Positions 6,556 to 18,771 of a stretch of DNA of 20,507 nucleotides are shown here, piece after piece (within the stretch, counting starts at the first letter, position 1; the number at the start of each line of letters is the position of its first letter). Where the stretch lies: IMG/VR virus record IMGVR_UViG_3300037119_002348, positions 1 through 20,507 of that record; one strand, written 5' to 3'. Position numbers and translations under genes: made by a program. The notes under the pieces were generated by a model. The model did not search any database. It saw nothing but the letters and a program-made list of their open reading frames with translations, and was not told the DNA's origin. The stretch is from a virus.

Positions 6556-6581
6556 CAAAGTAGTGACGATGCAAGTACGGT
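6552..6581 (+). promoter_or_regulatory. Candidate sigma70-type promoter for the packaging/head operon
   Basis: TTGACA (6552-6557) matches the -35 consensus exactly and is followed after 18 bases by TACGGT (6576-6581), which fits the loose TANNNT -10 used in high-GC bacteria but only half of the full TATAAT consensus. It sits at the end of gene 6064-6555 in one of the few real intergenic gaps on the plus strand, just upstream of terminase. A start near 6588 would give a leader of about 55 bases containing a hairpin. Confidence 0.45.
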
Positions 6582-6604
6582 GCCCCGTTGAGCGGTAGGG
6601 CTGT

Positions 6605-6637
6605 GCCCTGCGTGGGTGCTGAACCCATGACGCGGGC
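6605..6637 (+). other. Bulged stem-loop in the small-terminase leader
   Basis: Three short arms can stack: GCCC/GGGC (6605-6608 with 6634-6637), GCGT/ACGC (6610-6613 with 6630-6633) and GGGT/ACCC (6614-6617 with 6623-6626), closed by a GCTGA loop with small bulges (T6609, ATG 6627-6629). It ends six bases before the ATG at 6644. No T-run follows, so a terminator is unlikely. It could control ribosome access to the terminase mRNA. No strong ribosome-binding site is visible outside it. Confidence 0.42.
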
Positions 6638-6643
6638 TGACCT

Positions 6644-7069
6644 ATGACGGAACAGGCTGAGCAACGTCGCTGCGTCGCCCATAATCAGGTCGGCCAGCCG
6701 TGTCGCCAGCGACCAATTCGAGGCGGAAGCGTATGTGTCGCCCATGGCGGGCGAGCGCCTCAGGTCAAACGCAAGGCCGAGGAACGTATCCGGGATCTGG
6801 TCGATCCAGCGATTAGCCGGCTCGCCAAGTTGATCGAGGATGACATCTCTGGCGTTGCCCTAGCAGCCGTCAAGGATGTCCTCGACCGGGCCGGCTACTC
6901 GGTTCGCCAACGAGTCGAGCATACCGGTGCCGATGGTGGCCCTATTGAGTTCGACGAGTGGCCAAGGATGCGTTGGCTGATTGTCGAGGCACTTGGTCCG
7001 TATCCCGAGGCGCAGCGAGCCGTGGTATTAGCGTTAGAGAGCGGGGAACAGAATGGCCGGGCGGACTGA
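6644..7069 (+). CDS. terS: Terminase small subunit-like protein
   Basis: This is a 141-residue protein directly upstream of the large terminase and overlapping it by 17 bases. The N terminus has a Cys/His knuckle ending in the HGG motif (C10, H13, C20, C31, H34, then GGRAPQVKRKAEERI), the form common in phages of actinobacteria and related hosts. It is followed by a helical region (AISRLAKLIED, AAVKDVLDRAGY) typical of this group. By family and position it should recognise the packaging site on phage DNA and bring it to the large subunit. The C-terminal half is poorly conserved, as is usual in small terminases. The call leans partly on position. Confidence 0.72.
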   Translation: MTEQAEQRRCVAHNQVGQPCRQRPIRGGSVCVAHGGRAPQVKRKAEERIRDLVDPAISRLAKLIEDDISGVALAAVKDVLDRAGYSVRQRVEHTGADGGPIEFDEWPRMRWLIVEALGPYPEAQRAVVLALESGEQNGRAD

Positions 7070-7859
7070 CGAGCTGCGCTGGGCGTTGGATCCCGCGGCA
7101 TGGGCGACCGACGTGCTTGACGTTCGGCCCGACGCCTGGCAAGCCGATGTGCTGCGTTCGAGGGCGCCGCGTCTGTTGATGAACTGTTGCCGGCAGAGTG
7201 GCAAAAGTTCTACGGCTGCGATTCTGGGGCTGCACCGCGCGGTGTTCTCGCCGCGATCGTTGGTCCTGGTTATCTCGCCGTCGCTCCGGCAGTCGAGCGA
7301 ATGGTTTCGCAAAGTGACAAACTACCTGGAGCGACTGCCGGAACGGCCAACGCTCGTTCAGGACAACCGACTATCGCTCGAATTAGCTAACGGCAGTCGT
7401 GTCGTTTCGCTCCCGTCGAGCGAGGCAACCGTCCGCGGCTTTAGCGCCGCCAGTCTGATCGTGGAAGACGAGGCTAGTCGCGTATTGGACGAGACGCACC
7501 AGGCTATCCGCGCCATGACGGCAATAAGTCGCGGTCAGCACATCCAACTCTCGACACCGAACGGTAGACGCGGGCATTTTTTCGAGGCGGCTACTGGGTC
7601 CGACAGTGATTGGCAATGTACGCGTATCACCTGGCAGGACTGTCCGAGGATCGATCCTGCGTTCGTCGAAGCGGAGCGCCGCGCACTCCCGTCGTTTGTG
7701 TTCGAGGCTGAATGGTGCTGCGCGTTCAACGATACCGCCGACGCGGTGTTTGCGAGCGTTGACATCGAAGCCATGTTCGATGATCCGTCGGCTACGCCGC
7801 TGTTCCCAGACCGACTCAGGCGCAACGTCTCGGACAATTATGTCGCTCTTGTTTCATGA
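7053..7859 (+). CDS. terL: Terminase large subunit, ATPase half (split gene)
   Basis: These 268 residues form the motor ATPase of the DNA-packaging terminase. The Walker A motif is CRQSGKSS (46-53), the strand and Walker B motif is LIVEDEAS (135-142), and a coupling-type motif LSTPNGRRG follows at about 169-177. The frame ends at a TGA (7857-7859) soon after the ATPase domain, at a point where other large terminases continue into a nuclease domain. That nuclease is encoded just downstream in the +1 frame (7840-8487). Together they would make about 475 residues, the normal size. This may be a true two-gene terminase, a programmed frameshift, a recent mutation or a sequencing error; the sequence alone cannot decide. 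The ATG at 7053 has a GGGG-containing site about seven bases upstream. Confidence 0.88.
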   Translation: MAGRTDELRWALDPAAWATDVLDVRPDAWQADVLRSRAPRLLMNCCRQSGKSSTAAILGLHRAVFSPRSLVLVISPSLRQSSEWFRKVTNYLERLPERPTLVQDNRLSLELANGSRVVSLPSSEATVRGFSAASLIVEDEASRVLDETHQAIRAMTAISRGQHIQLSTPNGRRGHFFEAATGSDSDWQCTRITWQDCPRIDPAFVEAERRALPSFVFEAEWCCAFNDTADAVFASVDIEAMFDDPSATPLFPDRLRRNVSDNYVALVS

Positions 7860-8487
7860 GAATGGGACGGGCTACGTCCGCGACCTGGAACCGGCGCCGG
7901 CACCGTCGAGTTCGGCGGTGTACCGCATAGGGCTCGACCTTGGCGCTGTTGACGACTATTCGGCGTGCAGTGTGGTCGAAGTAACGAATATCGAGCAGCC
8001 CGGCGAAGCACGCTACGAGGTCAGGCATCTTGAGCGCTGGCGCCAGCCCTATCCCTCGATCATCCCGCTGGTGCTCGATATTGTCGGACGATTGCCGGCT
8101 GAGCGCCGCTTACTCCTGGTTGACGCGACGGGTGTCGGCTTGGCGGTTGTGCAGATGATGCGACTCGCTGACCTGGACTTGCTCGGAATCACAATTACCG
8201 CGGGCGACCAGACTGGCCGCAACGCGGCAGGCATCACGGTGCCGAAGGTATCGCTGGTGGGCGCTCTACAGGTGGTCATGCAAACGCATCGGCTGAAGGT
8301 TGCGTCCGGGCTTCCGGATGGGCGCACGCTGGCTACCGAATTGCAGGCGTTCACGCGACGGCAGAATCCGGTCACCGGCAGGAATCAATATGCCGCGTGG
8401 CGCGAAGGCGAGCACGACGATCTGGTGCTAGCCGTGTCAATGGCCGTGTGGCACGGTGAGAACCGCTCAGTGAGTAGGTTTTATTAG
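7840..8487 (+). CDS. terL: Terminase large subunit, nuclease half (split gene)
   Basis: These 215 residues carry the RNase H-like nuclease domain that cuts phage concatemers during packaging. Acidic residues sit where expected: D33 in YRIGLDLGAVDDYSA, the Asp of LLLVDATGVG, and the HDD of GEHDDLVLAVSMAVW near the end. The ATG at 7840 lies inside the end of the ATPase frame (20-base overlap) and would allow separate translation. No clear ribosome-binding site precedes it, so coupling or frameshifting is needed if both halves are made. The frame stays open and well conserved to the usual terminase C terminus, which argues against old decay. The stop overlaps the epimerase start (ATTAG). Confidence 0.86.
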   Translation: MSLLFHENGTGYVRDLEPAPAPSSSAVYRIGLDLGAVDDYSACSVVEVTNIEQPGEARYEVRHLERWRQPYPSIIPLVLDIVGRLPAERRLLLVDATGVGLAVVQMMRLADLDLLGITITAGDQTGRNAAGITVPKVSLVGALQVVMQTHRLKVASGLPDGRTLATELQAFTRRQNPVTGRNQYAAWREGEHDDLVLAVSMAVWHGENRSVSRFY

Positions 8488-9364
8488 AGTCCTGGTTACT
8501 GGCGGCGAAGGATTTATCGGGCGGCATCTGGTCGAACGGTTCAGGGCGTTCGAGCACGATGTGACGGTGTACGACCTGGCGACCGGCGGCGATTTGATGA
8601 ACATGCCGCGGCTGAATGCGTCGATGGCCGGCCAGGACATGGTGTTCCATCTGGCTGGGCACGCTACGGTTCGATTGACCGCGGATCAGTGGTTGCCGAT
8701 ACGGTCAAACGTCATCTGCACGCAGAACGTGCTTGATGCCATGCGGCTCGCCGGCGTTCATCGGATCGTGTTCAGCTCAACGAGCGCGGTATACGGTGAT
8801 ACGATAACGTTCCCGACGCCCGAGGACGTGCCGTTCCCGGTCCAGACCTCGTTGTACGGAGCGTCCAAACTAGCGGCTGAAGCGCTCGTGTCAGCCTATG
8901 CTCGATCGTTCGACTTGCAGGCGACGATCTTCCGGTTCGCGCCAGTATTGGGCGAGGGCTATCACCGCGGCCATCTGTACGACTTCTGGCGGAAGCTGAA
9001 TCAAGACCCGACGCGAATCGAGATCCAGGGCAACGGCGAGCAGCGCAGGTCGTACATCTACGTGAGCGATGTGGTTGACGCCATGCTGCTGGTCGGGCTG
9101 GATGAGTCGAGTGAGCCGGTGCGGATCTTCAATGTCGGCCACTACCAGTCGTGCACGGTGAACGAGTCGCTCGGTTGGCTGTGCGAATCGTGCCACATCG
9201 AGCCTGAGCGGGTATACACTGGCACCAGTTGGAAGGGTGACAAGGCGCTGACGCTGCTCGACTGTACGCGGCTCATGGCGTTGGGCTGGACGCCCCAGGT
9301 GTCGATCAAGGACGCCGTGCTGAGGACCGTGGCGTCGTTTGATGCTGGGCGCATGAGCGCATGA
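8483..9364 (+). CDS. NAD-dependent epimerase/dehydratase (extended SDR), apparent ATT start
   Basis: Counted from an ATT at 8483, this 293-residue protein begins MRVLVTGGEGFIG, the standard N terminus of the family, with the NAD-binding TGGxGFIG at residues 6-13. The catalytic set is present: FSSTSAVYG (S98-T100 region) and LYGASKLAAE (Y125, K129). Later blocks (RFAPVLGEGY, RRSYIYVSDVVDAM, ALGW.P near the end) fit sugar-nucleotide epimerases or dehydratases of the GalE/RmlB type. It should act on an NDP-sugar, probably the NDP-heptose made by its neighbours; the exact reaction cannot be told. No ATG, GTG or TTG lies in frame between the upstream stop at 8471 and this motif; the first GTG (8561) would remove the NAD site. 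ATT at 8483 overlapping the terminase stop, or CTG at 8492, are the candidates. Confidence 0.88.
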   Translation: MRVLVTGGEGFIGRHLVERFRAFEHDVTVYDLATGGDLMNMPRLNASMAGQDMVFHLAGHATVRLTADQWLPIRSNVICTQNVLDAMRLAGVHRIVFSSTSAVYGDTITFPTPEDVPFPVQTSLYGASKLAAEALVSAYARSFDLQATIFRFAPVLGEGYHRGHLYDFWRKLNQDPTRIEIQGNGEQRRSYIYVSDVVDAMLLVGLDESSEPVRIFNVGHYQSCTVNESLGWLCESCHIEPERVYTGTSWKGDKALTLLDCTRLMALGWTPQVSIKDAVLRTVASFDAGRMSA

Positions 9365-9374
9365 GCGCATGAGC
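9351..9374 (+). repeat. Tandem repeat, three copies of GCATGAGC
   Basis: Three exact 8-base units occupy 9351-9358, 9359-9366 and 9367-9374, across the epimerase stop (9362-9364) and the next gene's start (9369). Each unit contains an ATGA. Because eight is not a multiple of three, gain or loss of a unit would change the epimerase C terminus and its overlap with the next gene. It probably arose by replication slippage. Confidence 0.8.
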
Positions 9375-9572
9375 GACGAGATTACGTTCCGAGTCCCGGT
9401 GTGCTGCAACGTGTTCTGTCATATGTGTCCGGAGCGCGACCCCGCGGCGTGTGAATGGTCGGTAAAGCCGTGGCGAGTGACGCCGGACGCGGGCGAAGCA
9501 GTGACGAACGCTGAAGTGGACGCCTTTGTTAAAACCGGTACCGGCCGACTCTGTTGGCGTGGCGTCGTTTGA
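9369..9572 (+). CDS. Small Cys-rich protein (67 aa), unknown
   Basis: The ATG in the third copy of the 8-base repeat starts a 67-residue product with a tight N-terminal cysteine group: C12, C13, C17, C20 and C28 (CCNVFCHMCPERDPAAC). A further Cys lies near the end (RLCW). It may bind a metal. No family is recognised. It sits between the epimerase and the SDR gene, and its stop overlaps the SDR start as TTGA. It looks like one of the small Cys-rich phage genes of the left region placed inside the sugar module. Confidence 0.52.
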   Translation: MSDEITFRVPVCCNVFCHMCPERDPAACEWSVKPWRVTPDAGEAVTNAEVDAFVKTGTGRLCWRGVV

Positions 9573-10276
9573 CAGATAAACGGGTCGCGCTCGTCACCGG
9601 CGGCTCGATGGGGCTGGGTAAGGCCGTGGCTGAGCATCTGGCGCAGACGATGGAAGTTAGTACGTGTGCGCGGAGCGGCGACGTGACGCACGGTGGCGAT
9701 GTTGCCAATCTGTATGACGTTGAGTACATCACTAATATCACCATCGCGGAATATGGTCGACTCGACGTACTCGTAAACAACGCAGCCGTGTACGGGCCGG
9801 TCGGTCAGCTCGACGAGACTGATGCATCCGAATGGTGGCATGCGGTCAAAATAAATCTGTTCGGACCAGTGCTCATGTCTCAGCATGTATTGCCTGTTAT
9901 GCGCAAGCAGGGCTACGGCAAGATCATCAACGTCTCGGGAGCCGGCGCTCGACCACAATCCGAATGCACGGCGTACAACGCCTCGAAGGCCGGCCTGATC
10001 CGGTTCACCGAAGCGCTCGCGGTCGACCTCGCGGGAACCGGGATCGATGTCAACGCAGTGGCCCCTGGGACGCTCGACACGCGCATGCGGTTACGGTCGG
10101 CGCTACCGGATGATCCGGCGGCCAACATGCGCAAGGCCGTCGACCTGATAGCGTGGCTGGCATCCTCGGCGAGTGATGGGGTTACGGGCCGGCTATTCAG
10201 CGCGGTGTGGGACGATTGGGAGCATTTGGGCGAACTCGGCAAGGATGACTACCGCATGCGGCGAGTTGTGCCATGA
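9569..10276 (+). CDS. Short-chain dehydrogenase/reductase (classical SDR)
   Basis: This is a 235-residue protein. The TTG at 9569 is chosen because it gives MTDKRVALVTGG and a TTGA overlap with the preceding stop; a TTG at 9554 would add five unmatched residues. The classical SDR features are TGGSMGLG (10-17, cofactor binding), NNAA (70-73), S123 in INVSGAG, and Y136/K140 in CTAYNASKAG, with N96 completing the tetrad. AVDLAGTGIDVNAVAPGTLDTRM is the usual C-terminal substrate-side segment. It should oxidise or reduce a hydroxyl/keto group with NAD(P)H. In this setting it probably works on a sugar or activated heptose after the epimerase, but the substrate is inferred only from neighbours. Confidence 0.86.
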   Translation: MTDKRVALVTGGSMGLGKAVAEHLAQTMEVSTCARSGDVTHGGDVANLYDVEYITNITIAEYGRLDVLVNNAAVYGPVGQLDETDASEWWHAVKINLFGPVLMSQHVLPVMRKQGYGKIINVSGAGARPQSECTAYNASKAGLIRFTEALAVDLAGTGIDVNAVAPGTLDTRMRLRSALPDDPAANMRKAVDLIAWLASSASDGVTGRLFSAVWDDWEHLGELGKDDYRMRRVVP

Positions 10277-10647
10277 CTGTAGACGAGCCTGAGTGGCAGG
10301 CCGGTGATGAACTCGATGCGATTATTGCTGAGCGAGTTATGGGCTGGACGCTCCATATCGCTGATGATCGCGAAGACGACTACTCACGATCTTGGCTGAC
10401 TGGCCCAAACATCCTTGTCGATTCGATTTTTGTCCATGAATTTCAGCCTAGCGTCGATATCACAGCCGCATGGCAAGTCGTCGAGCGGCTCAAGCTAGCA
10501 GTGATTCCCGACGTTGCGGGCGGTTACAGGGCAGCAAAAGAACCGTATGAGGGACCACACTGGTACGAGGTTAATGTGAACGATTGGGAATGGGGCGAGA
10601 CGGCTCCACTCGCGATCTGTCGTGCCGCACTGCGAGTTGTTTCCTGA
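10273..10647 (+). CDS. Phage ABA-sandwich-domain-like protein
   Basis: This 124-residue protein resembles the small phage ABA sandwich family, whose members read roughly 'LD..IAE.VMGW' near the start, 'YS.DI.AAW.VVE.L' in the middle and 'TAPLAICRAAL' at the end. All three are visible here (AIIAERVMGWTL, SVDITAAWQVVERL, ETAPLAICRAALRVV). The function of that family is not known. It is a phage-type gene lodged between the SDR and the heptose kinase, joined by ATGA at its start and CTGA at its end, so it is probably co-translated with them. A role in sugar metabolism is not indicated. Confidence 0.72.
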   Translation: MTVDEPEWQAGDELDAIIAERVMGWTLHIADDREDDYSRSWLTGPNILVDSIFVHEFQPSVDITAAWQVVERLKLAVIPDVAGGYRAAKEPYEGPHWYEVNVNDWEWGETAPLAICRAALRVVS

Positions 10648-11585
10648 TCATCGCTCGAGCGCCACTCCGGGTTACGCTCGGTGGAGGCGGCACAGACATC
10701 CCCGCTTACTACACGAAGCATGGTGGTCGATGTCTCGCCGCGGCGATCGACAAGTACGTGTACATCACGATCCACGAGACGTTCGTCGACGACCTGATCG
10801 TCAAGTACAGCAAACTTGAACGAGTGCCTGATTCCGAGCATGTGGAGCATCCGATCGTGCGCGAGGCGTTGCGCATGCTGCACATCAAGGGCCGTGGCCT
10901 GGAGATTTGCAGCCACGCCGACATTCCAGCCGGCACCGGGTTGGGTTCGTCGTCCAGCTTCACGGTGGCGTTACTCCAGGCGTTGCACGCATACCGGCGC
11001 CAGACGTGCTCACGCGAGCAGCTCGCTGAGGAAGCGTGCCGAATCGAGATCGACGCGCTCGAGCAGCCCATCGGCAAGCAGGATCAGTACATCGCGGCGT
11101 TCGGCGGGGTGACAATCCTGTCGTTCTACCAGGATGGTCGCGTGAGTCCGGTAGGTTTGAATATGCGAGCTGATACGTTCGCCGACCTTGAGGACAACCT
11201 GCTGCTGTTCTTCACCGGGCACACGCGCAAGGCCGCGGAGGTCCTCGGTGCCAGCACGATTCCAGACAGCCATTGGCACTGGTTTGCTGAGAATGCCGCA
11301 GACGCGCTTGAGGACGGCAATATTCGAGGATTTGCGCAGCAGATGAACGAGCAGTGGGCGGCCAAGAATCAACGAACGCCGGCTAGTGACGATATCCAGC
11401 GCTGGCACGCGCTCGGCTTGGCGAACGGTGCGCTCGGCGGAAAACTGGTTGGAGCCGGTGGCGGCGGGTTTCTGATGTTCTACGCGGAGGACAAGGCGCC
11501 ATTACGCCGAACGATGACTGAGCAAGGGTTGCGCGAGGTGCGCTTTCGGTTCGACTGTCACGGTGCGCAGGTCGTGGCGTCGTGA
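10644..11585 (+). CDS. hddA: D-glycero-alpha-D-manno-heptose-7-phosphate kinase-like GHMP kinase, apparent CTG start
   Basis: From a CTG at 10644 this 313-residue protein begins MIIARAPLRVTLGGGGTD, the standard HddA N terminus. The CTG overlaps the previous stop as CTGA, like the ATGA/GTGA/TTGA joins of neighbours. An ATG at 10584 is in frame but would add 20 residues with no family match, read out of frame inside the preceding gene. GHMP kinase motifs are GGGGTD (13-18), ADIPAGTGLGSSSS (92-105, phosphate-binding loop), IGKQDQY (143-149) and the late GGKLVGAGGGGFLMFY. By family it uses ATP to phosphorylate C1 of D-glycero-D-manno-heptose 7-phosphate, giving the alpha-1,7-bisphosphate of the GDP-heptose route. 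The kinase family is certain; heptose as substrate is supported by GmhA and HddC neighbours. Confidence 0.88.
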   Translation: MIIARAPLRVTLGGGGTDIPAYYTKHGGRCLAAAIDKYVYITIHETFVDDLIVKYSKLERVPDSEHVEHPIVREALRMLHIKGRGLEICSHADIPAGTGLGSSSSFTVALLQALHAYRRQTCSREQLAEEACRIEIDALEQPIGKQDQYIAAFGGVTILSFYQDGRVSPVGLNMRADTFADLEDNLLLFFTGHTRKAAEVLGASTIPDSHWHWFAENAADALEDGNIRGFAQQMNEQWAAKNQRTPASDDIQRWHALGLANGALGGKLVGAGGGGFLMFYAEDKAPLRRTMTEQGLREVRFRFDCHGAQVVAS

Positions 11586-12256
11586 GTCTGACCGTTGCGA
11601 TTCTGTGCGGTGGGCTCGGCACGCGGCTGAAACCGCTGACCAACACGATGCCGAAGTCGCTGGTTGAGGTCGCTGGAATCCCGTTCATTAACTACCAACT
11701 CCGACATCTGGCCAGTCAGGGCATTGAGCGCGTGGTGCTGTGTATCGGATACCGCGGCGCCCAGATCGCGGAGTTCGTCGGCAGCGGCCAGCGGTTCAAC
11801 CTCGACGTGGCGTACTCGTCCGATGGCGGCAAGCCGCTCGGTACCGCTGGCGCGATCAGGAAGGCACTACCGTTGCTCGGCTCGGAGTTCGGCGTCCTTT
11901 ACGGCGACGTGTACCCGCTGTACGACCTGCAAGCTATCGAGCTTACGAACATGGCGACAATGGCTGTACGTCGGCCAGGCCGCGGTAACGTGAAGTTCAC
12001 CAACGATCACTGGCGCATTGCCTATAAGCGTAACCAGGATGCGTGGTTACATGGCGATGCTGGATTCTCGGTGGTCGATGCTCGGGCTCTCTCGCACGTA
12101 TCGACAGCATCGGATTTAGGCGACCTGTTCTGCGACATATCCTTCGATGGGTATCTGGATGGTTACGAGGTGACGGAGCCGGTGTACGAGGTCGGCTCAT
12201 TCGAGGGACTCGCAGCATTCGAGCGGTATGTCCTTCACGACCGAATACCTGTCTGA
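11582..12256 (+). CDS. hddC: Heptose-1-phosphate nucleotidyltransferase-like (HddC-type)
   Basis: This is a 224-residue nucleotidyltransferase. The GTG start overlaps the kinase stop (GTGA). The N-terminal nucleotide-binding signature is GGLGTRLKPLT (10-20), followed by MPKSLVEVAGIPFINYQL, then YSSDGGKPLGTAGAI and VLYGDVY, in which the Asp should bind metal and substrate. By family it couples a sugar 1-phosphate to an NTP. Next to HddA and GmhA the most likely product is GDP-D-glycero-alpha-D-manno-heptose, although the base (G, A, C or T) cannot be read from the sequence. The end overlaps the isomerase gene by 29 bases, the longest overlap in this module. Confidence 0.84.
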   Translation: MSLTVAILCGGLGTRLKPLTNTMPKSLVEVAGIPFINYQLRHLASQGIERVVLCIGYRGAQIAEFVGSGQRFNLDVAYSSDGGKPLGTAGAIRKALPLLGSEFGVLYGDVYPLYDLQAIELTNMATMAVRRPGRGNVKFTNDHWRIAYKRNQDAWLHGDAGFSVVDARALSHVSTASDLGDLFCDISFDGYLDGYEVTEPVYEVGSFEGLAAFERYVLHDRIPV

Positions 12257-12779
12257 GGTTGCGGCCATTGCCGGCGATCTGGACGCCGACCAGGTTGATG
12301 CTTGCGCCGCGCTACTGTCTGAAGCAAGGCGTGTGTTTGTGTTGGGCAATGGCGGGAGTGCGGCGAACGCCAGCCACTTTGTCAACGACCTGCGCAAGGT
12401 GGCTGGGATCGAAGCCTACGCGCCGACAGACAACGTGGCCGAACTCACCGCTCGCACCAATGACGATGGCTGGCATACCGCGTTCGTCGGCTGGCTGAAG
12501 ACGAGCCATCTCGATCTGTTCGACCTCGTGTTCGTGCTGTCGGTTGGCGGCGGATCGGTCAGAACCAGCCCGAACATTGTTGCTGCGCTCGTTTATTCCC
12601 GCGAGGCTGGCGCGCAAATCGCGGGGATCGTGGGCCGAAGCGAGGGTTACACGAAACAGGTTGCCGATGCTTGCATCGTGGTCCCCACGGTCAATGAGGA
12701 GCACGTGACGCCCCACGCCGAATCGTTTCAGAGCGTGCTGTGCCATCTGCTCGTGTGGCATCCGGCCTTGCAGGCATGA
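12228..12779 (+). CDS. gmhA: Phosphoheptose isomerase-like SIS-domain protein (GmhA-type)
   Basis: This is a 183-residue single SIS-domain protein. VLGNGGSAANASHFVNDL (38-55) contains the phosphate-binding SIS motif and H50, with D54 where Escherichia coli GmhA has the catalytic E65. LSVGGGS (104-110) is the second phosphate loop. TPHAESFQSVLCHLLVWHP near the end supplies E165 and H173, eight residues apart like Q172 and H180 of E. coli GmhA. By family it converts sedoheptulose 7-phosphate to D-glycero-D-manno-heptose 7-phosphate, first step to activated heptose. The D and E substitutions may simply mark the subfamily that travels with HddA/HddC. It starts inside the nucleotidyltransferase gene and ends in an ATGA overlap with transaldolase. 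Confidence 0.82.
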   Translation: MSFTTEYLSEVAAIAGDLDADQVDACAALLSEARRVFVLGNGGSAANASHFVNDLRKVAGIEAYAPTDNVAELTARTNDDGWHTAFVGWLKTSHLDLFDLVFVLSVGGGSVRTSPNIVAALVYSREAGAQIAGIVGRSEGYTKQVADACIVVPTVNEEHVTPHAESFQSVLCHLLVWHPALQA

Positions 12780-13447
12780 AGCTGTTTGTCGACTCGGCCA
12801 ATCTTGCGGCCATCGAGGACGCGCTGCGTACCGGCGCGGTGAGCGGCGTCACGACGAACCCGAGCATCCTGGCGAAAGAGGGCGTGACCGACCCGTTGCG
12901 CCACTATGACGTGATCCTGGAGCAGTTTGGTCGCTACGGCATGAATCTGCCATTGAGCGTTGAGGTGACTGAGTCGGAACCCGTCGCCATGTTCGGCGAG
13001 GCGCTGCGCATCGTGGGAGCCCTGGACTACCCGCATCTGGCTATCAAAGTGCCAATTCAGTGGTCGTGGCTCCCCGTGGTGCGCCGATTGATCGCAGAGA
13101 GCATCAACGTCAACGTCACGGCGTGCATGTCCTACGCCCAGGCGATCGTGGCCGCGGACGCTGGCGCAACCTACGTCAGCCTGTTCTGGAACCGTATTCG
13201 CGATGGAGGCGAGCAGCCAGCCGAGATTGTGCGGGCGGTCCGCACAACCTTCCGCGAGAATGATTGCAAGACCAATATCATCGTCGGCTCGATCCGCTCA
13301 ACACGCGATGTGACCGACGCCATCATGGCTGGCGCGGACATCGTGACCGTGCCGCCACAGTTTCTCGCGCCGCTGTGCGACCACCCGAAGACCGACGAAG
13401 TGATCAGCCAGTTCCTGCGGGACGCTAAACAACCCATTCACGTCTAA
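12776..13447 (+). CDS. Transaldolase / fructose-6-phosphate aldolase-like (TalC/FSA type)
   Basis: This is a 223-residue TIM-barrel protein of the short transaldolase class. MKLFVDSANLAAIEDAL and GVTTNPSILAKEG (24-36) are family hallmarks, and K91 in HLAIKVPI is the expected Schiff-base lysine. Later barrel strands are altered: INVNVTACMS where relatives usually read NVTxxFS, and YVSLFWNRIRDGG where they usually read a VS.F.GR..D block. The ATG at 12776 is used (ATGA with the isomerase stop); an upstream in-frame GTG at 12740 lies inside the isomerase gene. Transaldolase can produce sedoheptulose 7-phosphate from fructose 6-phosphate and erythrose 4-phosphate, exactly the substrate of GmhA, so it may feed the heptose pathway. 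A related aldolase reaction cannot be excluded. Confidence 0.84.
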   Translation: MKLFVDSANLAAIEDALRTGAVSGVTTNPSILAKEGVTDPLRHYDVILEQFGRYGMNLPLSVEVTESEPVAMFGEALRIVGALDYPHLAIKVPIQWSWLPVVRRLIAESINVNVTACMSYAQAIVAADAGATYVSLFWNRIRDGGEQPAEIVRAVRTTFRENDCKTNIIVGSIRSTRDVTDAIMAGADIVTVPPQFLAPLCDHPKTDEVISQFLRDAKQPIHV

Positions 13448-13472: not shown

Positions 13473-15005
13473 ATGCCGAACCCACTTCAGGCCATTGGGA
13501 AGATGCTGCGCGGCGATTACTTGTCGCACAAGTTCACGCCGCTCGATCCGAGCGTCAACTGGCAGTACATCAATCACCTGGTCTACACGGCCAACACGGT
13601 CCCGTACTCGCAGGACTACAGCGGCGACGGCAACTCGGCCGTGTTTGCCTGCTTGCGGGCGCTCGCCTACGCCAGCATTGAGGCCCCGCTTCGGGTCTGG
13701 AAACTCGACGCCAAGCAGGAACGTGAGCCGCTCTTCACCAGCCCCATCCTCGACCTGCTGGACGAGCCGCACCCCGACCTCGACCTGAACGAGATCCGCT
13801 GGTGGTCGGCTTGGGCACGGCATATCGACGGCAACGCGTACGTGCTCAAGGTCCGCTCGGGCAATTCGACGTTCGGTACGCCCGTTGAGTTGTGGCCGAT
13901 CAGCCCGACCAGGATGCGGCCACACACTGAGCGCGGCTCGAACAACTTCATCGACTGGTACGAACTCGACCGTTACAACGGCGGGCCGCCGCAAGAAATC
14001 CCGGTCGAGAACGTCATTCATTTCAAGCTGGGCGTCGATCCGTACGATACGCGTAAGGGCATCAGCCCCCTGAAGCGGCTGGTTCGCGAGATCGCCAGCG
14101 ACGGCGAGGCCACACGGTACGCAGACGCCTTGCTCCGCAACTTCGGCACACCGGGTCTGGTGGCCAAGCTGCCGGCCGAGACGATGCTGGCGCCGAAACA
14201 GATCGAGGAACTCAAGGCGAGCATCAGCCAATCCTTCGGTGGCGAGAATCGTGGCCGAGTCGGCGTGCTGTCGGGCGGCGCGGATATGGAACAATTCGGG
14301 TTCTCGCCGGACCAGTTGAACCTGAAGGTGCTCCACGACGTTCCTGAGACGCGTATCGCCGCGGTCATGGGCGTTGACCCGCTGGTAGCACGATTGGGCG
14401 TTGGGCTCGAGCAGACCAGCAACTACGCCAGCGCTCGCCAGGTCCGGGAAAACTTCACCGAGCTGACCATCATCCCGTTGTGGACGATGGATGAGTCGAA
14501 GTGGAATCGCAAACTCAAGCGGGACTTTACGGACGATCGGTCGATCATCATCGCGCACGATCTGACCGAGGTGCGCAGCCTTCAGGAAGACGAGAACGAG
14601 AAGTACAAACGGGTCATCCTCGCGGTTCAGGCCGGCGTCTTTAGTCGCGAGATGGCCTTGCGCGAGCTAGGTTTTGACGTGCTGGCTGAGGATGATTCGC
14701 TGTGGGTGCCGACGGCTGGCAAGTGGGTCGCGGTGAGCGATAGCGTCACGGACCCCGAGGCAGAGCGCCAGCAGGCATTGGCCGAGGCCGAGGCAAGGCG
14801 ACCAGCACCAGGGCTACCAGCGGCAGGCGCGCCTGCTACGCAGCCGGCGGCCCCTTCAGGCGGGAAGGCCCGCGGCGATGCGTTTGCTGAGGTGGTGCAG
14901 AGCATCGTGGATCAGGCAGCGGGCGACTTCGCTGACGACCTGCAGCGGCTGCAGGACGGCCAGCAGAAGCGCGTTACCAACAGCCTTGTCAATGGCTCGC
15001 GCTGA
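13473..15005 (+). CDS. Phage portal protein (HK97-type)
   Basis: This 510-residue portal is preceded by GGAGGT at 13455-13460 after a short gap, the first clear ribosome-binding site since the sugar module began. Typical HK97-family portal stretches are seen: SAVFACLRALAYASIEAPLRVW near the start, LLDEPHPDLDLNEIRWWSAWARHIDGNAYVLKVR, VIHFKLGVDPYDTRKGISPLKRL, FGTPGLVAKLPAE, and VPETRIAAVMGVDPLVARLGVGLEQTSNYASARQ. The C-terminal ~80 residues are Ala/Pro/Gln-rich and variable. Twelve subunits form the ring at the capsid vertex through which terminase pumps DNA. The stop overlaps the next start by 14 bases. Confidence 0.95.
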   Translation: MPNPLQAIGKMLRGDYLSHKFTPLDPSVNWQYINHLVYTANTVPYSQDYSGDGNSAVFACLRALAYASIEAPLRVWKLDAKQEREPLFTSPILDLLDEPHPDLDLNEIRWWSAWARHIDGNAYVLKVRSGNSTFGTPVELWPISPTRMRPHTERGSNNFIDWYELDRYNGGPPQEIPVENVIHFKLGVDPYDTRKGISPLKRLVREIASDGEATRYADALLRNFGTPGLVAKLPAETMLAPKQIEELKASISQSFGGENRGRVGVLSGGADMEQFGFSPDQLNLKVLHDVPETRIAAVMGVDPLVARLGVGLEQTSNYASARQVRENFTELTIIPLWTMDESKWNRKLKRDFTDDRSIIIAHDLTEVRSLQEDENEKYKRVILAVQAGVFSREMALRELGFDVLAEDDSLWVPTAGKWVAVSDSVTDPEAERQQALAEAEARRPAPGLPAAGAPATQPAAPSGGKARGDAFAEVVQSIVDQAAGDFADDLQRLQDGQQKRVTNSLVNGSR

Positions 15006-16522: not shown

Positions 16523-17647
16523 TTGGCACTTGGCCGTGCTCCACGTACCTTAGCTCTAGTCGGAGATGAGACTGGATGCTCCCTTTGGAGAGTCTGGCAA
16601 CCATTCGCTGAGTTAGAGAACCGCGGGTTTATTGCCGAGTGGGCACATAAAGATAAGGCCGACCAGATCCTGCCGCTGGTTGCGGTTGGACGCTACGACG
16701 CCGTCATTACGCCGCGGATCGTGTGGCCGGTCGAGAAGATCGGTGAGCAGTGGATCAGGGCGATTCATAACGCCGGGCTGGCCTGGATTTACGAGGTCGA
16801 CGACGATGTGTTCTCGCCGCGCATCGTTGAACGGCAGATGCGTGTCTTCCCGACCGAACGCGAGAAGGGCGCTGAGCAGCTCGAATGGGAACGGCTCGAG
16901 CGCATCAAACTCTTGAGGTCGTGCGATGGCGTCACGGTCGCCAGCCGGCGACTCGCGACGATTGTGCGCCGGTATGCGCCTGACGGTACGCCGGTGTACT
17001 GGATTCCCAATGCGATCGACGCGAAGTGGTTCAAGTCGACGCTCCGCGGAATCGGTCGTATCCCCGCGCTGGAAGGCAAGCTAACCATCGGCTGGGCGGG
17101 CGGCGCCCGCGAAGAGGCCGATATGAAGCCGCTGGCGCTGGCGTGGCCGATCATTGCCGAGCGGTATCCCGACGTCCAGTTCGTCATTCAGGGCCACATG
17201 AGCGATTCGCTCTACCACTGCCTGCCGCGGGATCGGCTGCACACGCTGCCGTGGCTGCAATTGCACGAGTACCCGCGCGCACTGATCAACTTCGATATTG
17301 GCTGCTGCAGTGTTGCGCCGCTGGTGTTCAACACGAGCAAGACAGCTATCAAGTGGTACGAGATGACGTTAGCCGGCGTGACGTGCGTCGTCAGCCCGAC
17401 GTTGTACGGCCCCGAGGTGACGGACGGCGAGGATGCGCTAGTGGCCGACACGGTCGATCAGTGGGTAACGGCGCTGAGCCGGCTGATCGAGGACGCCGAG
17501 TTACGCAGGACGCTGAGCCGGAACGCCCGGCGCAAGGTCATGGAAGAACACTCACTGGAACAGAACTGGTGGCGTTGGCCGGAAGCCTGGTCGGACGCGA
17601 TCGAACGATTCCGCGCGAAGCCGAGACTTATTCTCGCGACGGCGTAA
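16523..17647 (+). CDS. Glycosyltransferase, GT-B/GT4-like
   Basis: This 374-residue protein starts at a TTG with a G6 run 12 bases upstream. The N-terminal domain contains GCSLWRVWQPFAEL (18-31), DAVITPRIVWP and WIYEVDDDVF (88-97), typical of a group of phage and bacterial GT-B enzymes. The linker IPNAID (161-166) and the C-terminal domain motifs LTIGWAGG.REEADMKPLA, PDVQFVIQGH and TAIKWYEMTLAGVTCVVS...GPEVTDGEDALVAD match the nucleotide-sugar side of the GT4-like fold, where a Glu follows the SKTAIKWYE segment. No membrane segment is seen, so it should act in the cytoplasm. It could transfer the heptose-based sugar made by the 8483-13447 module to a phage protein, DNA or host molecule; donor and acceptor are inferred. 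It interrupts the normal head-gene order. Confidence 0.82.
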   Translation: MALGRAPRTLALVGDETGCSLWRVWQPFAELENRGFIAEWAHKDKADQILPLVAVGRYDAVITPRIVWPVEKIGEQWIRAIHNAGLAWIYEVDDDVFSPRIVERQMRVFPTEREKGAEQLEWERLERIKLLRSCDGVTVASRRLATIVRRYAPDGTPVYWIPNAIDAKWFKSTLRGIGRIPALEGKLTIGWAGGAREEADMKPLALAWPIIAERYPDVQFVIQGHMSDSLYHCLPRDRLHTLPWLQLHEYPRALINFDIGCCSVAPLVFNTSKTAIKWYEMTLAGVTCVVSPTLYGPEVTDGEDALVADTVDQWVTALSRLIEDAELRRTLSRNARRKVMEEHSLEQNWWRWPEAWSDAIERFRAKPRLILATA

Positions 17648-17922: not shown

Positions 17923-18771
17923 TTGCTGTACCTGTCTACACCGCTGGAGCTGGTCGAGATCAAGGCCGACTCGTCCGGCGCTATGGAATTTTCTGCTTAC
18001 GCGTCGACCTTCAACAACAAGGACCACGGCGGCGATGTCATCACCAAAGGCGCGTTTAGCGCCAGTCTCGCCGAACGCAAGTTCCGGCCGCTGCTCTGGC
18101 AGCACGACATGCGCGAGCCGATCGGTATCGAAAAATCGCTCAAGGAAGATGGCCGTGGCTTACTCGGTACGTGGGAACTGGTCGATACGCAGCGTGGTCG
18201 TGAAGCCTACAAACTGCTCAAGGCCGGCGCGGTCCGTTCCATGTCGATTGGCTATGTGCCGGTCGAATTCAAGTTCGATGACGCCGGCGACACGCGCATT
18301 CTCAACCGTATCGACCTGCTCGAAAATAGCGTGGTCAGCTTGCCGATGAACGAGCAGGCCCAGGTGCAATCCGTCAAGCACGTCCATTGCGCGACATGCA
18401 TGGCACTCGTCGAAACACCTAAGAAGGAGGAGGAGCCCCCTACCGAAACCGAAGATAAATACGGGGATATGACGCTGGCGCAACTCGCCGGCGCAGTCAG
18501 TGAGGTGGTCGCAGCGTTCGGTGAACGCGCCCGCGGCTTTCTCGACAAACTCTCGGCCAGCGATCTTGACCTGACCGAATCGAAGCGCACAGACCTCCAG
18601 GCACTTCTCGAGACGTTCTCGGGGATCGACGCCGTGCGTCACGACGCCGAAGCGGTACTGGCTCACAAGCAGCACCAGGTACCCGACCCGACGACTAGCC
18701 AGATCAGTGCGACTGCCCTGGCTCTTGAACTGGCCCGTCACCGCCTCCGAGCGCGTGGCGTGGAGGTCTGA
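17923..18771 (+). CDS. HK97-family prohead protease
   Basis: This is a 282-residue protein starting at TTG with GGGAG about seven bases upstream. The protease domain fills the first ~155 residues: FSAYASTFNNKDHGGDVITKGAF (23-45), LLWQHDMREPIG (57-68) with the catalytic H61, and VRSMSIGY (104-111) with the probable nucleophile S108, then LLENSVVSLPMNEQAQV. The C-terminal 125 residues are a long charged, helical tail with CATC at about 152-155; this might act as an internal scaffold, as in other phages where protease and scaffold are joined. It cleaves the capsid delta domain during maturation. The capsid gene begins seven bases after its stop. Confidence 0.92.
   Translation: MLYLSTPLELVEIKADSSGAMEFSAYASTFNNKDHGGDVITKGAFSASLAERKFRPLLWQHDMREPIGIEKSLKEDGRGLLGTWELVDTQRGREAYKLLKAGAVRSMSIGYVPVEFKFDDAGDTRILNRIDLLENSVVSLPMNEQAQVQSVKHVHCATCMALVETPKKEEEPPTETEDKYGDMTLAQLAGAVSEVVAAFGERARGFLDKLSASDLDLTESKRTDLQALLETFSGIDAVRHDAEAVLAHKQHQVPDPTTSQISATALALELARHRLRARGVEV

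Follow-up and report, generated by a model that had tools for sequence, protein, structure and literature searches.

A putative nucleotide-sugar module in the head operon of an uncultured phage lineage, collinear with a bacterial and archaeal operon

The window analysed here, a 20,507-base fragment of an uncultured phage record (IMG/VR; IMGVR_UViG_3300037119_002348), carries six sugar-enzyme genes between the genes for the terminase large subunit (terL) and the portal protein; judged by gene content and order, this module (8483-13447, all genes on the + strand) is a shortened but collinear version of an operon widespread in bacteria and archaea, of whose nine genes the phage lacks three. The module is an old resident of the phage genome and no artefact, and it is under purifying selection, as are the head genes. 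Our best guess at its use, which we give an even chance, is that late in the infection it would make an activated higher-carbon (C7 or C8) sugar with which the virion is glycosylated. Already known are glycosylated virions, talC in phages, and phage sugar clusters that include a heptose-type kinase; new is a near-whole set, from transaldolase to nucleoside diphosphate (NDP) sugar, placed in the head operon and common to a phage lineage. If the reading is true, these phages would build a rare sugar themselves in step with head assembly, beyond borrowing host sugars for virion glycosylation. Furthermore, the module draws attention to an operon that is common in bacteria and archaea, has apparently not been studied and encodes the enzyme classes by which the lincosamide octose is made, and the identity of the higher-carbon sugar becomes a directly testable question.

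Family searches (Pfam, NCBIfam and PHROG) support the enzyme classes that a preliminary description of this DNA had proposed, and confirm its six same-strand sugar genes between terL and portal. The interval (terL end 8487, portal start 13473) holds eight + strand open reading frames (ORFs), since two small non-sugar ORFs lie among the six. The module opens with a nicotinamide adenine dinucleotide (NAD)-dependent nucleotide-sugar epimerase/dehydratase of the LmbM/GalE-like class (8483..9364; PF01370, E 7e-37; PHROG nucleotide-sugar epimerase) bearing the motifs GGEGFIG and YGASK. It continues with an SDR oxidoreductase (9569..10276, start near 9569; PF00106, E 7e-41; motif YNASK), a GHMP-family sugar-phosphate kinase of the HddA/LmbP class (10644..11585, start near 10644; HddA model, E 1e-37), a sugar-1-phosphate nucleotidyltransferase (NTase) of the HddC/MurU/LmbO class (11582..12256; PF00483, E 1e-16) and a SIS-domain sugar-phosphate isomerase of the GmhA/LmbN class (12228..12779; PF13580, E 8e-7). 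A short, talC-type transaldolase (12776..13447, start near 12776; PF00923, E 7e-42; TIGR00875, 144 bits) closes it. The non-sugar ORFs are a 67-amino-acid frame (9369..9572, +) with no Pfam, NCBIfam or PHROG match, found among the mapped relatives in L001 alone (relatives are coded L001 and so on; the viral ones are from IMG/VR), and a small Phage_ABA_S protein (10273..10647, +; PF18066, E 1.6e-16).

The joints of the module are overlaps or nearly so, the widest gap (about 25 nt) lying upstream of the portal gene, which bears out the tight one-strand packing described earlier. The 29-nt overlap of the isomerase and NTase genes is also seen in L003 (a 61-kb contig) and L005 (a 55-kb contig). 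In the window copy the tight overlaps rest on rare start codons, namely an ATT overlapping the terL stop for the epimerase (L003 has CTG there) and a CTG for the kinase (GTG in L003 and L005). The true starts must lie near these joints, since the relatives have CTG or GTG there and a Rossmann motif follows directly after the epimerase ATT. Promoter- and terminator-like sites were not enriched in the module region.

The same block recurs in L001 (99.9% DNA identity over 11.4 kb), L002 (81-89%), L003 (78-82%) and L005 (73-77%), and also in L006 (with L002) and L004 (with L005); L004 and L005 are identical across their shared 16 kb and were counted once. The module is present in four phage types, the window's own and three further related ones, from several metagenomes; the epimerase gene is kept in L002, L003 and L005. 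Module and head genes have diverged alike, the protein identities to L003 and L005 being 90 and 79% for the kinase and 87 and 79% for the portal protein. Ratios of non-synonymous to synonymous substitution rates (dN/dS) against the window are 0.08-0.31 for the module, with the exception of the L005 transaldolase (0.41), and 0.11-0.24 for portal, protease, capsid and glycosyltransferase. The guanine-cytosine (GC) content of the module (0.59-0.62) is that of the remaining window. A recent insertion or a chimera is ruled out, since all four phage types have the block with the same joints and its divergence matches that of portal and capsid; the earlier view of a settled part of the genome, neither contaminant nor recent insertion, is upheld. 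As a separate observation, the L005 transaldolase (10555-11181) has an internal deletion and lacks about 12 residues that its relative L109 has, and a conserved Glu has become Gln; the enzyme is possibly changed or decaying.

The origin of the module was approached with a profile of the phage kinases, which yielded the 80 closest loci in bacteria and archaea, one genome per species. Near the kinase lay an NTase in 73 of these loci, a SIS isomerase in 70, an epimerase in 65, a GmhB-type phosphatase in 64, a transaldolase in 62 and an SDR in 47; the loci span many phyla and so are not near-copies, and since related operons are not independent events the counts are no probability. All six phage gene classes occur together in 37 loci, 27 of which have the exact phage order, and kinase, NTase, SIS isomerase and transaldolase follow the phage order on one strand in 52 of 59 bacterial loci. 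The typical operon, as in Methyloglobulus morosus (L082), runs epimerase, NDP-sugar dehydrogenase, SDR, Gfo/Idh oxidoreductase, GHMP kinase, NTase, SIS isomerase, GmhB, transaldolase; plasmid 3 of Lawsonia intracellularis has an annotated, rearranged copy. The phage module shares six classes with it in the same order, at identities of 48-56% for the kinase, about 45-60% for the isomerase and about 26-46% for the NTase. It differs in sitting inside a head operon and in having a talC-type transaldolase instead of one of the TIGR02134 type, and no NDP-sugar dehydrogenase, Gfo/Idh or GmhB gene lies between the module genes in the window, L003 or L005. The window epimerase is the counterpart of the operon's epimerase and the SDR holds the same position as in bacteria, while the Phage_ABA_S ORF occupies the Gfo/Idh slot; L003 has an unrelated ORF (6558-7007) instead. 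The small ORFs at this SDR-kinase joint thus differ between phages and are unrelated. The combined pathway, which had been thought unusual, is therefore a common bacterial operon in itself; what remains unusual is to find it among the head genes of a phage. The bacterial and archaeal loci (L028-L107 and L149), which span phyla, encode the same enzyme classes as the lincosamide octose pathway, and in the literature no paper naming the product of this operon was found.

The transaldolase looks like a replacement by another subfamily in the same place, with its function presumably kept: the window protein scores 78 bits with TIGR02134 against 144 with the talC model, and the L082 transaldolase scores 328 bits with TIGR02134. 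In the viral contig L011 (12271-13530) a GmhB-type phosphatase is fused to a TIGR02134 transaldolase beside isomerase, NTase and kinase genes, which ties the transaldolase to the pathway. In the kinase tree, the window, L003 and L005 form a clade with 100/100 support on a long branch nested among bacterial kinases, the nearest bacterial neighbour of which is weakly supported, and L011 lies separately within Acidobacteriota. A single phage origin of the kinase was rejected, as the tree requires at least two changes and other phage kinases fall elsewhere. A search for the phage host with a portal profile against 400 Chloroflexota genomes gave distant matches only.

As for the enzymes themselves, the first matches of kinase and isomerase among solved structures are heptose-pathway enzymes. 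The best NCBIfam model for the kinase is HddA, with PDB matches 4usm, 4usk, 3k85 and 4n3o (E to 1e-34), and the best PDB family for the isomerase is GmhA (5ltz, 2xbl and 2x3y; E to 6e-11). The NTase, however, scores higher with MurU (106 bits) than with HddC (79 bits), and its PDB matches are the MurU-type 4y7t and 8hhd first and the heptose-pathway 6jq8 and 5xhw next. Isomerase residues H50, D54, E165 and H173 are invariant in 12 relatives; these four candidate metal or catalytic positions read H, D, E, H in the phage and H, E, Q, H in GmhA, where we take them to be metal-binding or catalytic residues. The transaldolase matches the transaldolase 3s0c (E 1e-38), with which Lys91, Glu63 and Phe137 align; these are catalytic residues and mark a transaldolase-like active site rather than that of a fructose-6-phosphate aldolase.

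The product may have seven or eight carbons, and an octose-type one would be compatible with virion glycosylation and with host-surface remodelling alike. The Campylobacter jejuni capsule pathway to guanosine diphosphate (GDP)-heptose shares the isomerase, kinase and NTase classes with the module, whereas the phage adds a transaldolase, reaches no equivalog cut-off and differs at the isomerase positions given above; the C. jejuni enzymes, as listed, begin at sedoheptulose-7-phosphate and include no transaldolase (PMC10680097). The lincosamide GDP-octose route typically has a transaldolase of its own; in this route LmbR (transaldolase), LmbN (isomerase), LmbP (kinase), LmbK (phosphatase), LmbO (guanylyltransferase) and LmbM (epimerase) act (PMC4351081), LmbR making octulose phosphate from ribose-5-phosphate (PMC5854111). 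Likened by class to this pathway (LmbR, N, P, K, O, M, L, Z and S), the module shares transaldolase, SIS isomerase, kinase, NTase and epimerase, and L003 and L005 also have DegT aminotransferases; unlike it, the phage lineage has no LmbK-class phosphatase and the module no LmbL- or LmbZ-class gene. Counterparts of LmbK, LmbL and LmbZ are present in the bacterial parent operon, and no lincosamide cluster sequence was recognisable in the Actinomycetota and plasmid searches. An octose-type NDP-sugar in place of a heptose is thus distinctly possible, somewhat short of an even chance: the shared classes, the ribose-5-phosphate use of LmbR, the cluster-borne transaldolase and the isomerase's D and E in place of the E and Q of GmhA speak for C8, while kinase and isomerase have heptose enzymes as their solved relatives and the transaldolase, which fits C8 as well as C7, could equally raise sedoheptulose-7-phosphate.

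The substrates, product and acceptor that we infer for the pathway are as follows. The transaldolase would make sedoheptulose-7-phosphate (or octulose-8-phosphate), the SIS enzyme would convert this ketose to an aldose and the GHMP kinase would phosphorylate it at C1, after which a host-supplied phosphatase may take off the terminal phosphate, no GmhB having been detected in the phage. The NTase would add a nucleoside monophosphate, probably guanosine monophosphate, and epimerase and SDR would tailor the NDP-sugar. Synthesis would take place during virion assembly, a timing suggested by the position of the genes within the late head operon, where they are packed too tightly to leave space for a separate promoter. 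Attachment of the sugar or its derivatives to virion proteins may fall to a glycosyltransferase (GT) of the Glyco_trans_1 class (16523..17647, +; PF13524, E 2e-9; PHROG glycosyltransferase, E 2e-15) and, in relatives, also to the GTs, aminotransferases and methyltransferase encoded downstream of the capsid gene. A fuller version, in which the phages bring their own rare C7/C8 nucleotide-sugar pathway timed with head assembly and coat capsid or tail with the derived glycan, and in which the parent operon is an uncharacterised, phylum-spanning, lincosamide-like route to octose or heptose derivatives, is offered tentatively and is rather doubtful as a whole.

The GT gene lies in the portal-protease interval, flanked by the head-morphogenesis gene on one side and the gene for the prohead protease (17923..18771, +; PF04586, E 9e-33) on the other, and is a candidate user of the module's sugar. 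It is kept in L003, L005 and L109, and in L112 and L114 as well. These last two have the GT and no module at the site, by which an inseparable unit of module and GT is ruled out. The preliminary description had overlooked this gene and its retention in module-less relatives, as well as the 67-amino-acid and Phage_ABA_S ORFs. An AlphaFold model of the GT (predicted local distance difference test score 52) was too poor and was not used for a fold search. A second sugar block lies 3' of the capsid gene in L003, with GT2 enzymes, two DegT aminotransferases, an FkbM methyltransferase and a GNAT protein, and in L005, with counterparts of the GT2, both DegT and the FkbM enzymes (L022, 1365-7539, for the 61-kb contig; L026, 1771-8071, for the 55-kb contig). 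A DegT enzyme is also found in the module-less L112 contig.

Several results weigh against synthesis of a higher-carbon sugar for the virion. None of the NCBIfam heptose equivalog cut-offs is reached, the scores being 130 bits for HddA (cut-off 600), 79 for HddC (300) and 45 for GmhA (209). With the NTase nearer to MurU and the transaldolase fitting C8 too, the NDP-heptose product of the preliminary description is not supported as worded. Neither is the label "complete-looking", for the TIGR01656 search found no GmhB in the 61-kb and 55-kb relatives, nor is there one in the window, itself a fragment; matches were found in L011 and L007. This absence is not fatal, as the GmhB of C. jejuni is also encoded elsewhere in the genome, outside the heptose gene cluster (PMC10680097). 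The window transaldolase, being talC-like and not of the TIGR02134 type, is no direct orthologue of the operon's, and that of L005 has its deletion and raised dN/dS. L112 and L114 carry the GT with no module at the terL-portal site, and no kinase match was obtained in the 78-kb L112 contig; since the GT is present in module-less phages, its donor there must be a different one.

The main rival to virion glycosylation, which we regard as unlikely, is remodelling of the host surface, whereby the sugar would enter a host surface glycan and block superinfection or change the receptor, by lysogenic conversion or late in infection. The bacterial versions of the operon do lie next to polysaccharide genes, among them glycosyltransferases and an NDP-sugar dehydrogenase; L003 and L005 are probably temperate, to judge from integrase-like recombinases recognised by reading their translations; and Caulobacter phage Cr30 carries its cluster of epimerase, GT2, heptose kinase and phosphoheptose isomerase outside the head operon. 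The module, however, is locked in the head operon, lacks a separate promoter and should therefore be silent in a lysogen; nor could a gene for a flippase, a polymerase or an O-acetyltransferase be recognised in its surroundings. Diversion of metabolism is improbable: transaldolase and isomerase would shift pentose-phosphate flux towards nucleotides, as proposed for cyanophage talC, with the other genes incidental. The transaldolase does match the PHROG transaldolase family, and talC is a known phage metabolic gene, but kinase, NTase and epimerase would be senseless in that role and are nonetheless conserved at low dN/dS, and the gene set recurs in bacteria. Least probable of all, and very unlikely, is attachment of the sugar to phage DNA bases. 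Phages with glycosylated DNA do exist, and the window has a fragment of a C5-cytosine methylase at 2-514, yet no gene for a hydroxymethylase, a thymidylate-synthase-like enzyme or base modification could be recognised and the GT sits among head genes.

Glycosylation of the virion, the use that we favour, has parallels in other phages. Capsid and tail-tube proteins of cluster O mycobacteriophages are reported to be modified by such enzymes (PMC11600133), and glycans are reported on the capsid protein of related F1 phages (PMC11256854). The cluster O Corndogvirus Idergollasper likewise has GTs in the portal-protease interval (an O-methyltransferase and two annotated GTs); it differs in having no NDP-sugar pathway in the annotated genome part covered, and no mycobacteriophage match was obtained for the window GT. 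Cr30 and Synechococcus phage SynMITS9220M01 also combine an HddA-like kinase with an epimerase, GTs and an isomerase or NTase. They are large phages, however, with clusters away from the head genes in the stretch covered and no annotated transaldolase.

The left border of the module is terL (7053..8487, +), which is read as two overlapping ORFs, an ATPase part (7053-7859; PHROG terminase large subunit, E 3e-52) and a C-terminal part (about 7840-8487; phrog_27743); the right border is the portal gene (13473..15005, +; PHROG portal, E 6e-55). The terL genes of L003 (3499-4968) and L005 (4639-6189) are intact, whereas those of the window and L001 read as two ORFs and gave no tblastn match in L003 or L005. 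DNA similarity between the window and L003 stops upstream at 6583 and returns at 8490, beside the epimerase start; this comparison indicates that terS-terL was exchanged while the module stayed with the portal gene. In portal relatives with no module, the terL-portal interval measures 356 bp (L115), 804 bp (L113), 1347 bp (L114) and 2761 bp (L112). The earlier remark that this spot is usually kept short agrees with the first two and not with the others, L112 holding other cargo in the form of an unrelated 691-amino-acid ORF (7717-9792) with a signal-like start and matches to virion structural protein families. Such module-less intervals of 0.36-2.8 kb show that the site accepts cargo, of which the module is one example. 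Apart from these relatives, contig L007 (814-4835), whose sample number is close to that of L001, holds a SIS isomerase, a GmhB-type phosphatase, a possible glycosyltransferase and an HddA-like kinase together.

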